A stretch of 28,659 nucleotides of DNA from a virus. This document shows, in pieces, positions 24,451-28,163 of the stretch. The DNA is taken from positions 1 to 28,659 of IMG/VR virus record IMGVR_UViG_3300042946_000895. One strand, written 5' to 3'. The translations under genes and the position numbers were made by a program. The notes below the pieces were generated by a model. It saw only the letters and a list, made by a program, of their open reading frames with translations. It was not told where the DNA came from and searched no databases. The stretch's first letter is position 1, and the number at the start of each line of letters is the position of its first letter.

Positions 24451-24849
24451 ATGAAGAAGTTAGAAATACCTATCTCGATATTTTCAGGAATCTGCGTTGG
24501 GGCAATCCTAACCGCTTTCTTGTCTTCTACCGCCATGCTCCAAGAGGTTTACATAGTTACTTTTACCTCTATTGCCGCTGCCTTAGTAACAATCTTTGTA
24601 GATTATCTAATATCGCCAAATCAGATATTTGGCTTTTGGCAGAACGCACTCAAGGCAATTGAAAACAGTCCTTTTAAGCCCTTTGCAAAACCATTGGGGA
24701 ATTGCATATTCTGTATGAATGTCTACGTATATACGGCTTGCTTTGTTGTGCTATATATTTATACAGAAAGCTCCTGGTGGTATTATATCCCAGGAGCTTC
24801 CTTATCTCACGTTGCCTTAGCCTATATTGATAGAAAAATCAATTCTTAG
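24451..24849 (+). CDS. membrane protein with PLGxCxxC motif
   Basis: A 132-residue inner-membrane protein with spans near residues 8-28, 33-53 and 92-108. Between the last two is PFAKPLGNCIFCMNVYV, a PLGxCxFCMNxxV motif like that of DUF1360-type phage membrane proteins. Its role is unknown; membrane proteins at the end of late operons can serve in lysis or exclusion. Its stop codon overlaps the stop of the convergent gene on the other strand, and its 3' part contains a ten-base-pair inverted repeat (24768-24799). Confidence 0.6.
   Translation: MKKLEIPISIFSGICVGAILTAFLSSTAMLQEVYIVTFTSIAAALVTIFVDYLISPNQIFGFWQNALKAIENSPFKPFAKPLGNCIFCMNVYVYTACFVVLYIYTESSWWYYIPGASLSHVALAYIDRKINS
24768..24799. repeat. 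inverted repeat near convergent operon ends
   Basis: A ten-base arm (AAGCTCCTGG) at 24768-24777 is perfectly complementary to 24790-24799, with a 12-base loop. It lies inside the coding end of the membrane protein, 48 bases before the point where the two operons meet. It has no T-run on either strand, so it is not a classical terminator. Confidence 0.6.
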
Positions 24850-25241
24850 AACATCTGCATTTGCTTTCTTGCTTGTTTGGCAAATTGCATAATCTCTATT
24901 TGGCGTTCAGCTTTTTCACGAATAGTACGGATTGCAAGTTCTCTTTGCTTTAGACTAATCACCCACTCCTCAATTTCTTTTATATCTTCAGTATAGAAAT
25001 ATCCTTTTCCTGAGGCAATTAGATTTGGAAGACCATTTGTGCGTAATGCTTGGACAACTTTCCTTACTCTTGAGTCGTGTATTTTCTTATCAAACTTTTT
25101 CTCAATCATTTTTGCTATATCGGCATTTTTAACAGCATTCTTTTTGCCCGTATTTGCCATAAACCATTGACCAAGATATTCAACACATTCAAGCTCAAAT
25201 GGAGTTAGTTCGTGTGTAACAGATTCAAAGTTCTTTAGCAT
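24846..25241 (-). CDS. winged-helix-like protein
   Basis: A 131-residue protein, the last gene of the minus-strand block. Residues 12-85 look like a winged helix: ELTPFELECVEYLGQWF, then KNAVKNADIAKMIEKKF, a putative recognition helix DSRVRKVVQALRTNGL and a wing GKGYFYTED. The C-terminal 45 residues form a charged helix (WVISLKQRELAIRTIREKAE). This suggests DNA binding, either a late regulator or a replication accessory. It overlaps the previous gene by 17 bases and shares stop-codon bases with the convergent gene. Confidence 0.55.
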   Translation of the reverse strand: MLKNFESVTHELTPFELECVEYLGQWFMANTGKKNAVKNADIAKMIEKKFDKKIHDSRVRKVVQALRTNGLPNLIASGKGYFYTEDIKEIEEWVISLKQRELAIRTIREKAERQIEIMQFAKQARKQMQMF

Positions 25242-25488
25242 CTTCTTGTATTTTAAGTTTGTCGTAGTTGTAAACCGTGTTATAGTATTCAGTAGAAGTG
25301 ATATTCTTTTGTTTCATGTGGTGTTCTTTTCCTTCCACATAAGCAAGCCTTATCTGCTGGCTTTCCTGCTCAAGTAGAGCTTCTGCCTCCTGAATGGCTA
25401 CATTAAAGATGACCTTCATTGTTGGTGCTTGACAGGATTCTTGTGCATCCTTTAGTCTCGCAATAAACTGCTGCATTGCTGTTCTCAT
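25225..25488 (-). CDS. small paralogous family protein A
   Basis: An 87-residue member of a five-protein family in this window. The N-terminus MRTAMQQFIARL, the central EQESQQIRLAYVEG and the motif EYYNTVYN match the family outline (M-K-T-x-L-Q-x-L, then E-x-x-x-I-x-x-A-Y-x-x-G, then Y-Y-N-x-x-Y). It lies about 1.4 kb from the other four, separated by the repressor-like and nuclease genes. The start follows an aaacaacaactaaa leader. Function unknown. Confidence 0.65.
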   Translation of the reverse strand: MRTAMQQFIARLKDAQESCQAPTMKVIFNVAIQEAEALLEQESQQIRLAYVEGKEHHMKQKNITSTEYYNTVYNYDKLKIQEDAKEL

Positions 25489-25500
25489 TTTAGTTGTTGT

Positions 25501-25863
25501 TTATGATTCTAAATAATTGTGAACTGATTGAATAAACTCATCAAGTGAGCGGCATACTTTTACCTCGTATCCAGCATCTTTTAAAAGCTGATGGGTTTGT
25601 TTCTGATTCGGAGATAAAACACCTTTTGATGTTTTCATCTCAATGAATAGGGCATGATACTTTTCCGATGGAATGCAAATTATTAGGTCAGGCATTCCAA
25701 GCATTGCACCTTCTGCCTTGAGGATATTCCACCTTCTTGCTCTTTGAACGGGTGTTCCGCTGATAAATACACCGTTGGGGAAAGAGGCAATAACTTGCTT
25801 TGGGAAGTTGTATTTAAACCACTCCACGCAGCTCTTTTGTATATTGCTTTCCTCGTGCTTCAC
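25501..25863 (-). CDS. VRR-NUC domain nuclease
   Basis: A stand-alone PD-(D/E)xK nuclease of 120 residues. The landmarks are E5 and Q9 in the first helix (HEESNIQKSC), SFPNGV at 27-32, G56-M-P-D59 (LGMPDLIICI), E75-M-K77 (LFIEMKT) and Q87 in the following helix, matching the VRR-NUC family often found in phages. The family cuts branched or structured DNA, so roles in replication, recombination or packaging are plausible. It overlaps the upstream basic gene by four bases (ATGA). Confidence 0.85.
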   Translation of the reverse strand: MKHEESNIQKSCVEWFKYNFPKQVIASFPNGVFISGTPVQRARRWNILKAEGAMLGMPDLIICIPSEKYHALFIEMKTSKGVLSPNQKQTHQLLKDAGYEVKVCRSLDEFIQSVHNYLES

Positions 25864-26141
25864 TTCTTTTTAAAGAACTTGTTGGGTACGTTGATGGTCT
25901 TACCTATTTGGCTTCCCTTCTTCCAATTTATCTCGTTTATCTTTTGCTTAGCCGTTTTAGGCTCTCCATGACGCGCAAGAAACGACTTGACTTGGGTTGT
26001 TGTTTTACCACCTTGTGTTCCCCACTTGCCTCTTTGGGTGTCTTGTCCACCTTGGATGATTCGTTTTTTACCTTCGACTGAGCATTCAGCTTTCCAGGCT
26101 TTTCCTTTCGCTGTCGCCCTTGTGATTTTACATTTCGCCAT
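25860..26141 (-). CDS. basic hypothetical protein
   Basis: A 93-residue, strongly basic protein (about one residue in five is Lys) that I do not recognise. It begins MAKCKITRATAKGKAWKAEC, has a Gly/Gln-rich centre (IIQGGQDTQRGKWGTQGG), then SFLARHGEPKTAKQKIN, and ends NKFFKKK. It may bind nucleic acid. It is coupled to the VRR-NUC nuclease by an ATGA overlap and follows the XRE gene by six bases, so a nuclease partner is a reasonable guess. Confidence 0.6.
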   Translation of the reverse strand: MAKCKITRATAKGKAWKAECSVEGKKRIIQGGQDTQRGKWGTQGGKTTTQVKSFLARHGEPKTAKQKINEINWKKGSQIGKTINVPNKFFKKK

Positions 26142-26147
26142 TTTGAT

Positions 26148-26351
26148 TTATTTAAAAAATACATCTATGTCTATATTGTAAAGGTCGCTCAATTTTTTGA
26201 CTAATTCAACGCTTATCTTCTTTCTTTTTCCATTCTCCAGTTTTGAATACTCAGGCTGGCTGATGTTTAACTCTTTTGCAACGTACCATTGGTTAAGGTT
26301 TGCGTTCAGTCTTAGATTCTTTATCGTTTCGTGCGTGTTCATCTTTTTCAT
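26148..26351 (-). CDS. XRE-family transcriptional regulator (Cro/CI-like)
   Basis: A 67-residue single-domain regulator. It shows the full five-helix pattern: THETIKNLRLNANLNQWYVA, then KELNISQPEYSKLENGKRK (turn and recognition helix), then ISVELVKKLSDLYNIDIDVF. Length fits Cro-like proteins with no dimerisation or cleavage domain. The first ATG (26351) overlaps the stop of a 55-residue gene as ATGA, so that start is preferred over the Met three codons later. A palindrome upstream of the pair (26519-26537) is a possible operator. Confidence 0.85.
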   Translation of the reverse strand: MKKMNTHETIKNLRLNANLNQWYVAKELNISQPEYSKLENGKRKKISVELVKKLSDLYNIDIDVFFK

Positions 26352-26515
26352 AGATACCTCGTGTCGTTTGTTAGTGTAAATAATTGCTGGTTTACTACCT
26401 TCAGTTGCTTAGTGATTGTGTTTTTTAAGAAAAGAGTCTTTGCATCCACAAATCGGTTAAGCAAATCAAGTCTTTTGAATCTAAGCTCTTCAAGTGTTGG
26501 TGTTTTCTTACTCAT
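26348..26515 (-). CDS. 55-residue helical protein coupled to XRE regulator
   Basis: A short gene starting MSKKTPTLEELRFKRLDLL and ending TLTNDTRYL. It is charged and probably one long helical hairpin. The stop overlaps the regulator start as ATGA, so the two are translated together. A small partner of a repressor could be an antirepressor or co-regulator, but the sequence gives no proof. Confidence 0.6.
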   Translation of the reverse strand: MSKKTPTLEELRFKRLDLLNRFVDAKTLFLKNTITKQLKVVNQQLFTLTNDTRYL

Positions 26516-26518
26516 ATT

Positions 26519-26537
26519 CTAATTTCATATAAATTAG
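26519..26537. promoter_or_regulatory. palindrome upstream of the regulator pair, candidate operator
   Basis: CTAATTT and AAATTAG form a perfect 7-5-7 inverted repeat whose end is three bases before the start codon of the 55-residue gene. Its size suits a dimeric Cro-like repressor. It could instead form a weak hairpin in the leader. The 47-base gap here is the longest in this part of the minus operon. Confidence 0.4.
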
Positions 26538-26562
26538 GGCACAATAATATGCTATTTTGGAA

Positions 26563-26934
26563 TCATTGCAACAAAATCTTTTCAAGATTAGGCTTTTCAT
26601 AACTCTGCGGCTTGAGAATCTTACCGTCATCACGCTTTTTGACTCTTCCAGCAACAACCTTGGTCATATTACTGCGGTGAATCTCATCAAAAACATCTTC
26701 AATCTTATCGGCAAGCCCGTGTTCTACGATAGTTCCTACAAGAACATAAAGCATATCTCCAAGAGCATCCGCAAGCTCTAAATGATTGTCTGCGAGAATG
26801 TATTCCGAGTTTTCTTCATCCAGCAGGTCATAACGAAGTCGCATTCTATCTTTATGAATCGCAATAAAGTGTGGAGGTGTATTAATTCCACAAGCCCGAT
26901 TCCATTCTTTTAGTTGTTCGATTTGCTTTCTCAT
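26563..26934 (-). CDS. MazG-like nucleotide pyrophosphohydrolase
   Basis: A 123-residue helical pyrophosphohydrolase predicted to hydrolyse nucleoside triphosphates or related pyrophosphates to monophosphates. The metal-binding pattern is seen as E40-E41-x-x-E44 (DEENSEY) and E53-x-x-D56 with D60 (LELADALGDMLY), the EExxE/ExxD layout of all-alpha NTP pyrophosphatases. The later DEIHRSNMTKV and GKILKPQSYEKPNL segments are typical of the phage subgroup. Such enzymes clean nucleotide pools or adjust alarmone levels. It overlaps the upstream gene by four bases. Confidence 0.85.
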   Translation of the reverse strand: MRKQIEQLKEWNRACGINTPPHFIAIHKDRMRLRYDLLDEENSEYILADNHLELADALGDMLYVLVGTIVEHGLADKIEDVFDEIHRSNMTKVVAGRVKKRDDGKILKPQSYEKPNLEKILLQ

Positions 26935-27155
26935 TGGTTATCGAATGTGGTTTCGTAATACTGAAGTCCATCCATGCTAACGCCATTTGTAATGTTAGTC
27001 AATGCTTTTTCATACGCCTCAGCGATAACCCACTTTTCAAACTCAAGCATATCGTAAAGCATTTGCTCTACATGCTCAGTTTTAACTTGTGTTTTCATTG
27101 CAACGTTCAGCGAATCAATTAGTTCGCGAACGGGGGTTCTTTTTGTTGTTGTCAT
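26931..27155 (-). CDS. small paralogous family protein B
   Basis: A 74-residue family member with the family start shifted inward (MTTTKRTPVRELIDSL), then FEKWVIAEAYEKA and LQYYETTFDNQ. It keeps the A-Y and Y-Y-x-x-T-F pattern but has lost the Gly after A-Y-x-x. It is joined on both sides by ATGA overlaps, to paralogue C upstream and the MazG-like gene downstream. Function unknown. Confidence 0.65.
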   Translation of the reverse strand: MTTTKRTPVRELIDSLNVAMKTQVKTEHVEQMLYDMLEFEKWVIAEAYEKALTNITNGVSMDGLQYYETTFDNQ

Positions 27156-27406
27156 TTATACTTGTTATTGGGGTTTACAAAAGTTTTGTTGTAGTATATC
27201 GCTCCCGCATCCATCGGTATCATTCCATCAAACATTCCATGCCTTTGTCCTTCATTGAAAGCCTTGATGATTGTTTGCTTTTCATCACGCTGAAGGTCAA
27301 TAGCAAGGTCAATTAAAGAATCAAGAAATTCTTTTTCTTTTGCGTTTTTTGACTTGTCCTGTGTCGAAGCCAAGCTGCATATCAATTCTTGCATTGGAGT
27401 TTTCAT
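27152..27406 (-). CDS. small paralogous family protein C
   Basis: An 84-residue member starting MKTPMQELICSL, the clearest family N-terminus, followed by RDEKQTIIKAFNEGQRHG and AIYYNKTFVNP. The frame is open 14 codons further upstream, but that extension does not resemble the family and the MKTP start is preferred. Its first 86 bases overlap the 3' end of paralogue D in another frame, far more than the usual four bases. Confidence 0.7.
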   Translation of the reverse strand: MKTPMQELICSLASTQDKSKNAKEKEFLDSLIDLAIDLQRDEKQTIIKAFNEGQRHGMFDGMIPMDAGAIYYNKTFVNPNNKYK

Positions 27407-27611
27407 TCGGGTCTGAGTAAAATCTTTTAAAATAATCCATAGCATCAATTTTCAAATCGTTTGAAGCAGCAAGCATTCCTGCTTCGTAAGCACCCACTAC
27501 ACATTCTTTCTCAAGTTGCAGTAAGTCCTTTATTTTTTCAAGTACTTGACAATCAAGCTGTTTGATGTTATCTCCAGCATTGTCTAAAAAAGTTTGCAAA
27601 GCGGTTTTCAT
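27321..27611 (-). CDS. small paralogous family protein D (extended C-terminus)
   Basis: A 96-residue member with MKTALQTFLDNA, then LEKECVVGAYEAG and DYFKRFYSDP. The family normally ends near this point; here about 25 more residues follow, rich in Lys/Arg at the end (KKRKRKRIS), all encoded within paralogue C in a different frame. The extension may have arisen by a frameshift that bypassed an ancestral ATGA stop. It overlaps paralogue E by four bases. Confidence 0.65.
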   Translation of the reverse strand: MKTALQTFLDNAGDNIKQLDCQVLEKIKDLLQLEKECVVGAYEAGMLAASNDLKIDAMDYFKRFYSDPNENSNARIDMQLGFDTGQVKKRKRKRIS

Positions 27612-27823
27612 TGATTATATCTTGAATTAAAAAAACTTTCAGGTTTTTGATGTACGTTCAATAATCCATCTCTCTTGCCGTGCAAAAAAGCATCTTCGAT
27701 TTGTTTCCTTTCTTCAACCAGCAATTCTTCAATTGCATTCTTTATCGCTCTTAACTGAAAAAGACAACCATTCTCTTTATTATCTTCAATCTCTGCAAGT
27801 AAGAGCTTTAAAGGTGTCTTCAT
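27608..27823 (-). CDS. small paralogous family protein E
   Basis: A 71-residue member and the first of the four tandem copies. It reads MKTPLKLLLAEIE, then VEERKQIEDAFLHGKRDG and ESFFNSRYNQ, with Phe in place of the usual Tyr pairs. It starts two bases after the stop of the membrane-protein gene and ends in an ATGA overlap with paralogue D. A possible -7 promoter box lies 23 bases upstream. Function unknown. Confidence 0.7.
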   Translation of the reverse strand: MKTPLKLLLAEIEDNKENGCLFQLRAIKNAIEELLVEERKQIEDAFLHGKRDGLLNVHQKPESFFNSRYNQ

Positions 27824-28096: not shown

Positions 28097-28163
28097 AAGG
28101 GTGTATAGGATTCGAACCCATAGCAGCTACATCGAGCCGTTTTTCCATTTAAACTAACACCCT
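28097..28163 (-). tRNA. tRNA-like element, shortened, anticodon unresolved
   Basis: On the minus strand AGGGTGT (5' end) pairs perfectly over seven bases with ACACCCT; TA follows, then a D arm GTTT/AAAC with GG in its loop, and a T arm ATGGG-TTCGAAT-CCTAT with the invariant TTCGA loop. Only 17 bases separate D and T arms instead of about 23, so a normal anticodon arm plus variable loop does not fit. The best helix is CGGCT/AGCTG with a six-base loop CGATGT. No CCA is encoded. It is either a degenerate tRNA or an odd tRNA-like RNA. Confidence 0.5.

Follow-up and report, generated by a model that had tools for sequence, protein, structure and literature searches.

Why does a phage carry five tiny, similar genes in one region? 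The question is raised by the virus record IMGVR_UViG_3300042946_000895, whose full 28,659 bases (hereafter the window) were analysed. Its plus strand encodes the terminase, tape-measure and other structural genes, and its right end is a minus-strand block of small genes. There, the initial annotation had described a five-member family of tiny paralogs, here named A to E. Indeed, all five open reading frames (ORFs) were found on the minus strand, encoding 71–96 amino acids (Table 1). As had been described, four of them (E-D-C-B) lie in direct tandem with three overlapping junctions; the overlaps measure 4, 86 and 4 nucleotides (nt), and A lies 1.4 kb beyond the tandem. Our analysis indicates that the five are true paralogs, and that the family's rapid change is an exchange of halves in a second class of genes absent from the window, not accelerated point mutation.

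The sequence outline proposed for the five proteins held in a five-way alignment, in which T3, the E of ExxxI and an A residue are invariant. Family membership was verified by a leave-one-out test, in which a profile hidden Markov model (HMM) built from four proteins scored the fifth, with 3,000 shuffles of the fifth and the other window proteins as controls. Held-out scores were 27.4–42.9 bits; the best of the 3,000 shuffles scored 7.8–15.4, none of them (0/3000) reached the score of any of the five, and the other window proteins scored at most 1.9. The five proteins thus find each other far above shuffled and unrelated sequences, indicating that A–E are one real paralogous family.

In scans of viral contigs, about nine close relatives of the entire operon were recovered, along with many that are more distant. 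The repeated duplication and fast divergence initially ascribed to A–E are contradicted by the sister phages. The order of slots E, D, C, B and A is preserved there, and the slots are fixed in 6 to 10 of these phages; orthologs of A–E are 80–100% identical in close relatives. The pooled ratio of nonsynonymous to synonymous substitution rates (dN/dS) was 0.15 for E, 0.29 for D (a value affected by the overlap with C), 0.12 for C, 0.35 for B (median 0.11) and 0.13 for A, with medians of 0.11–0.23. For comparison, the MazG-like, VRR-NUC, winged-helix-like and XRE neighbours gave 0.10, 0.11, 0.10 and 0.51, respectively. Positive selection on A–E was not seen in pairwise dN/dS, which is an average that could mask a few positively selected sites. 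Half-swapping within A–E was looked for in the sister phages and not found; both halves of each protein diverge together. Given the low dN/dS, the fixed slots and the co-diverging halves, fast divergence does not hold for A–E, which are stably inherited under purifying selection.

These data bear on two alternative explanations. The first is an arms race, in which A–E are duplicates diverging fast as anti-defence or host-takeover factors. Their early location, small size and paralogy would fit it, as would the further copies gained and lost in sister phages. However, the pooled dN/dS of 0.12–0.35, similar to that of most neighbours, the close identity of the orthologs, and the lack of any PADLOC or anti-CRISPR match other than isolated weak ones make this improbable. 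The second is that A–E assemble into a single complex, such as a mixed helical bundle; this would explain their fixed number, order and tandem layout. Supporting such a hetero-oligomer, the five slots are conserved and ordered in sister phages, A–E are under purifying selection with D set apart by its basic tail, and the 4-nt ATGA overlaps suggest coupled translation. We nevertheless regard it as rather unlikely, because most other phages carry only one to four family copies.

D is also distinguished by its end, which extends beyond the usual family end and, in a different frame, into gene C. All 10 relatives compared have an overlap of exactly 86 nt, including some with only about 60–70% identity in C, and the lysine/arginine-rich end is always kept. 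When synonymous codons were resampled with the C protein fixed, the D-frame stop fell at the same position in 0.7–4.4% of cases per sequence, and did so together with a comparably basic end in <1%; the lineages are related, so that these probabilities are not independent. Because synonymous divergence is high yet the overlap is unchanged, the 86-nt overlap is most simply explained as being maintained.

The second class behaves differently. Its genes carry a central AKAMEKEQI block with a 26-nt core and pair their halves with unrelated partners, features absent from A–E and present in the sister-phage genes that occupy a slot left empty in the window. For strict counts, 265 proteins were compared with window-clade orthologs excluded, taking halves as the same at 75% or more and as unrelated under 40%. 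We relied on these counts because clustering at 70% splits some diverged orthologs (e.g., D and C) into false partners. The same N-half was joined to unrelated C-halves in 138 pairs and the reverse was seen in 82; both halves were the same in 42 pairs, and only 14 were intermediate. At least two mutually unrelated partners were found for 29 of 42 recurrent N-halves and 28 of 45 recurrent C-halves, with a maximum of nine. The exchange point is the AKAMEKEQI block: when genes were aligned at the core, both kinds of pair showed a step in nucleotide identity at the block, from about 0.9 on one side to 0.3 on the other. The ratio of nonsynonymous to synonymous polymorphism (pN/pS) was 0.16–0.18 in the shared halves; therefore, each half is constrained as a protein whatever its partner.

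A direct example is provided by the sister-phage loci L006 and L007, whose backbones are 77–83% identical. In gene 1 the two loci have identical N-halves and differing C-halves. They become nearly identical again at the junction between genes 1 and 2, and then differ in the N-half of gene 2 but share its C-half. As a control, genes were split plainly at their midpoint; 41 of 273 close family pairs were mosaic, compared with 2 of 831 pairs of other small genes from the same loci (p = 7e-24). The family figure may be inflated, as locus searches with short peptides can favour one-half matches and two of the searches used two particular proteins. Two samples are free of this bias. Swaps were present in the window-clade loci fetched by C and E, and among loci fetched only by core DNA, 9 of 10 recurrent N-halves and 5 of 9 recurrent C-halves had more than one partner.

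All of these sequences come from metagenomic contigs, and assemblers could have fused halves from different phages at the core, which repeats exactly over up to 26 nt. This length is exceeded by the larger k-mers commonly used in assembly. Moreover, chimeras are unlikely because the shared halves are mostly non-identical between contigs (median nucleotide identity 0.88 and 0.92; only 4–5% identical), as is the case for real diverged copies, and L006 and L007 share the same backbone again on both sides of the swap. An assembly artefact is thus extremely improbable.

Some family genes show other rearrangements. One gene, found with the same sequence at L063:7920-8213 (+) and L066:7799-8092, has a doubled start, MSKQTAVEWLAE-MNTDMKKQTAVEWL, an apparent recombination scar at the start block. 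Genes in L346, L359 and L009:7580-7846 have a normal front half and core followed by a back half that lacks the YYNETY ending (e.g., ...ENAMAHAITFGWELSHYHRD...), and their back half may have been replaced by unrelated sequence.

The exchange block is unusual as DNA. An identical 26-mer, GCCAAAGCAATGGAGAAGGAGCAGAT, is present in 42 of 134 swapping genes. Glutamate is encoded by GAG in 84% of core codons, compared with 22% in the variable segments and 41% in the background, and glutamine by CAG in 90%, 7% and 40%, respectively (core versus variable segments, p about 1e-72). The 134 genes were gathered with degenerate peptide patterns, so that codon choice should not have been imposed by the search. 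At least 119 stretches contain a near-exact core pattern. Each of the 119 occurrences read in newly fetched loci is in frame in a family-like gene, as judged by inspection of the translations; both flanking motifs passed a strict motif test in 83. Either selection on the DNA or recent homogenisation could produce the codon bias. A possible reading, though one somewhat short of probable, is that the 26-nt core is selected as DNA and acts as a recombination handle, which would join front and back modules from a pool shared among phages into new two-sided inhibitors with their halves unmutated.

The same data could be explained by neutral mosaicism, in which low-fidelity recombination picks the best-conserved stretch, swapping is a non-adaptive by-product, and the core is conserved by recent spread and gene conversion. 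Rad52-like phage recombinases are reported to promote mosaics and exchange between short, diverged homologies (PMC3945230). Also in its favour, pairs with a shared half lie in unrelated flanks (median identity 0.53–0.55, equal to that of random pairs), as would follow from general horizontal transfer. On the other hand, mosaicism inside a gene is very rare among the other small genes of these loci, the core codons are opposed to both local and background usage, and two-thirds of the recurrent halves have unrelated partners. We consider neutral mosaicism possible, though somewhat short of probable. The mosaicism of lambdoid phages by Rad52-like recombinases (PMC3945230) resembles the present case in being homology-driven exchange between diverged phage genomes, and the window-clade phages encode a RecT homologue. 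It differs in that genome segments are exchanged there, whereas here exchange occurs inside a tiny gene, at one DNA-conserved block and in many unrelated phages.

Fold models were obtained for gene C and one distant family member. The AlphaFold2 model of C, built with a 139-sequence alignment, has a mean predicted local distance difference test score (pLDDT) of 90.5 and a predicted template modelling score (pTM) of 0.76, with helices at residues 4–18, 22–57 and 67–77. The distant member (pLDDT 92.3) shows the identical helix order, 6–17, 23–54 and 58–66. For these two proteins, one of them from the window, structure prediction of monomers, a check suggested at the outset, gave a common three-helix order; the family fold is predicted to be short helix–long helix–short helix. 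Three conserved blocks flank the two variable segments: a start block T-A/P-x-x-x-L, the mid-helix ExxxI and the end YYNxTY/F. The first lies where helix 1 begins, the second midway along helix 2 and the third in helix 3. The helix lengths suggest two helical hairpins with one common long central helix. A fold search of the Protein Data Bank (PDB) and viral models identified nothing significant, the best viral match (E = 0.016) being an uncharacterised phage protein. Ferritin-like, 14-3-3 and L27 rows among the structural matches of the C model were regarded as generic helix packing.

The layout of short, long and short helices within about 70 residues recalls histones, and the PDB comparison of the distant-member model lists histone-fold chains almost exclusively (Z 3.3–4.2, root mean square deviation 3.5–5.1). 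Divergent histone-fold proteins could package DNA or pair in a handshake, and prokaryotic and phage histones with the same three-helix layout occur in tailed-phage metagenomes (PMC11390915). However, these Z scores are within the range of a common helix arrangement, and the matches of the C model list no histones. A profile comparison with archaeal histones (a target profile of four histones only) scored 9.3, the median of column-shuffled nulls; no PF00808 match was found, and the median net charge of −4 argues against DNA binding. In phage histones the third helix is truncated, and they also possess a C-terminal helix for tetramerisation and conserved lysines that are candidates for DNA binding (PMC11390915), whereas the window family is acidic on average and no sequence relationship to histones was found. 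Although one of the structural comparisons suggested the histone-fold reading, sequence does not support it and the charge is wrong; we regard it as very improbable.

Our working model takes A–E as five stably inherited representatives of a large family of tiny three-helix phage proteins and proposes, with confidence evenly balanced by doubt, that the swapping class recombines two-sided binders at the core. Each half would be a helical hairpin with its own binding surface, and the whole protein, made early in infection, would act as a two-sided (bivalent) adaptor or inhibitor. Within the swapping class, the 26-nt core would be the site where phage recombination, of the RecT type where present, links any front half to any back half, so that new pairings could be tried against changing host factors. 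A–E would belong to the same toolkit as settled components that may act together, and D would have gained its extra basic tail through overprinting. Anti-defence would be the most natural purpose of the family.

Several observations weigh against this model. A direct arms race by point mutation would not be expected to leave the halves under purifying selection. No swapping copy is present in the window itself, and the 26-nt sequence is missing from its cores. The two-hairpin reading derives from predicted helix boundaries, not coordinates, and no family, fold or solved-structure match gives the family a function; we infer its biochemical role. A RecT-family recombinase was found in 6 of 6 window-clade records tested and in 8 of 44 records overall, with Erf in one more; a recognisable RecT or Erf in only 9 of 44 records means that the recombinase is not general or was not recognised.

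The family is carried by hundreds of uncultivated phage contigs. With one sister-phage member as query, at least 554 matches were obtained in viral contigs. Genome contigs yielded only three matches, all in metagenome-assembled genomes and two of them Bacteroidota. Family copies lie side by side in many other phages, bearing out the co-occurrence in tandem that the initial annotation had asked about. At L071:8001-8375 (+), a single ORF of 124 amino acids comprises two consecutive family copies in-frame, a natural tandem fusion. Searches of annotated phage genomes (INPHARED) with DNA, members and consensus queries gave no credible match; matches with E values of 0.2 or higher, most of them to terminases, were attributed to chance. 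Pfam, PHROGs, NCBIfam, PADLOC and solved-structure sequences gave no coherent match for A–E, and the family is unnamed there. Among 38 members searched with PADLOC and anti-CRISPR models, one matched HEC-01B (2.8e-5) and one AcrIIA4 (1.8e-3), isolated and weak hits with no coherent family signal. Literature searches for the motif strings YYNETF and MEKEQI returned nothing.

Arrays of short genes in crAss-like phages of Bacteroidota, proposed to include anti-CRISPR proteins, offer one comparison (PMC7886860). Anti-CRISPRs are described as having homologs only in close relatives (PMC7886860); the crAss-like arrays show no family or domain match to the window family, which is widespread with widely shared halves. 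The closest working analogy, not implying membership, is module exchange in HsdS, the specificity subunit of type I restriction-modification systems. In HsdS/DOMO, two variable modules between conserved sequences are exchanged by recombination at repeats, with arrays and duplications (PMC3077401), and the swapping class likewise has two exchangeable modules bounded by conserved blocks. HsdS differs in being a large DNA-recognition protein with two target recognition domains, whereas the family protein is about 70 amino acids, helical and acidic on average; no HsdS specificity domain appeared in Pfam tallies for 38 and 100 family members. Module exchange at conserved repeats is already known in large specificity proteins. 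Its occurrence inside a phage protein of roughly 70 residues, across hundreds of phage contigs and at a DNA-conserved block, would be a simple, testable case of combinatorial protein evolution in viruses, since each half is open to expression, swapping and assay. Half-swapping may allow phages to remix small binding proteins quickly. Such families will be overlooked or split in databases built on whole-protein similarity, and PHROGs and Pfam are examples here. In the window, fixed and variable copies can now be told apart, which indicates where functional tests should begin.

The location of A–E in an early region, as initially described, is borne out by early and DNA-metabolism neighbours both here (Table 1) and in other phages, where the family lies beside helicases, RecE-like exonucleases, NinG, HNH and methyltransferase genes. 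Two neighbours stand apart in their rates across sister phages. The XRE repressor-like gene, with a pooled dN/dS of about 0.5, has the highest value in the operon and is strongly different between sister phages (compared with L004 and L005); a 93-residue basic protein with no assigned function has a very low dN/dS of 0.03.

Table 1 Positions of family genes and neighbouring features in the window.
Feature	Positions	Strand	Details
Family gene E	27608..27823	−	ORF; 71 amino acids; first of the tandem; held-out HMM 28.7 bits against a shuffle maximum of 7.8; sister-phage slot 43–100% identity
Family gene D	27321..27611	−	96 amino acids; 4-nt overlap with E; C-terminal polybasic tail KKRKRKRIS; held-out HMM 27.8 bits; sister-phage orthologs
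Family gene C	27152..27406	−	84 amino acids from ATG at 27406; held-out HMM 34.1 bits; 36 relatives in viral contigs; AlphaFold2 model
Family gene B	26931..27155	−	74 amino acids; 4-nt overlaps with C and the downstream MazG-like gene; held-out HMM 27.4 bits; slot kept, 30–97% identity
Family gene A	25225..25488	−	87 amino acids; apart from the tandem, between the VRR-NUC and winged-helix-like genes; held-out HMM 42.9 bits; 80–87% identity in sister phages
D/C overlap	27321..27406	−	86 nt; D tail overprinted on the first 28 codons of C
MazG-like nucleotide pyrophosphohydrolase	26563..26934	−	Directly downstream of B; PF01503 6e-12, phrog_671 1e-28
XRE/Cro-type repressor-like helix-turn-helix protein	26148..26351	−	PF01381 2.7e-13
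Probable deletion scar	26343..26351	−	ATGAAAAAG, matching the first three codons of the gene missing here, now the start of the XRE gene
Basic protein	25860..26141	−	93 amino acids
VRR-NUC nuclease	25501..25863	−	PF08774 2e-12
Winged-helix-like protein	24846..25241	−	Overlaps the end of A; phrog_2113 2.1e-11, unknown function
tRNA-like element	28097..28163	−	Rfam tRNA 41.1 bits (cut-off 29)

The empty slot lies between a gene for 55 amino acids and the XRE gene. Sister phages carry 1–4 extra family genes there, mostly of the TAVEWL...AKAMEKEQI...YYNETY type, and none was found in this slot of the window. At the window junction, ...GGTATCTATGAAAAAG is joined directly to ATGAACACGCACGA, the first part corresponding to the start of the missing family gene in L004 (...GGTATCTATGAAAAAGCAAACAGCAGTAGAG). 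In L004, ATGAACACGCACGA is preceded by ...AAAAAAG upstream of XRE, and AAAAAG precedes the XRE start. The simplest reading is that the window probably lost a variable cassette by short-repeat deletion, leaving three codons behind; insertion in the sister phages, instead of deletion in the window, is a less simple but still admissible alternative.

Just upstream of an 85-residue gene and the family tandem lies the tRNA-like element listed in Table 1, on which ARAGORN makes no call and whose apparent anticodon loop is 6 nt. Five sister loci have the element in the corresponding position, and its acceptor and T stems show compensatory changes there; L004 lacks 7 nt of the anticodon arm. Elsewhere, a tRNA-Leu (TAA) directly follows a variable family cassette at L007:6258-6353 (+), and another tRNA match lies just after a family gene at L009:7851-7921 (+).

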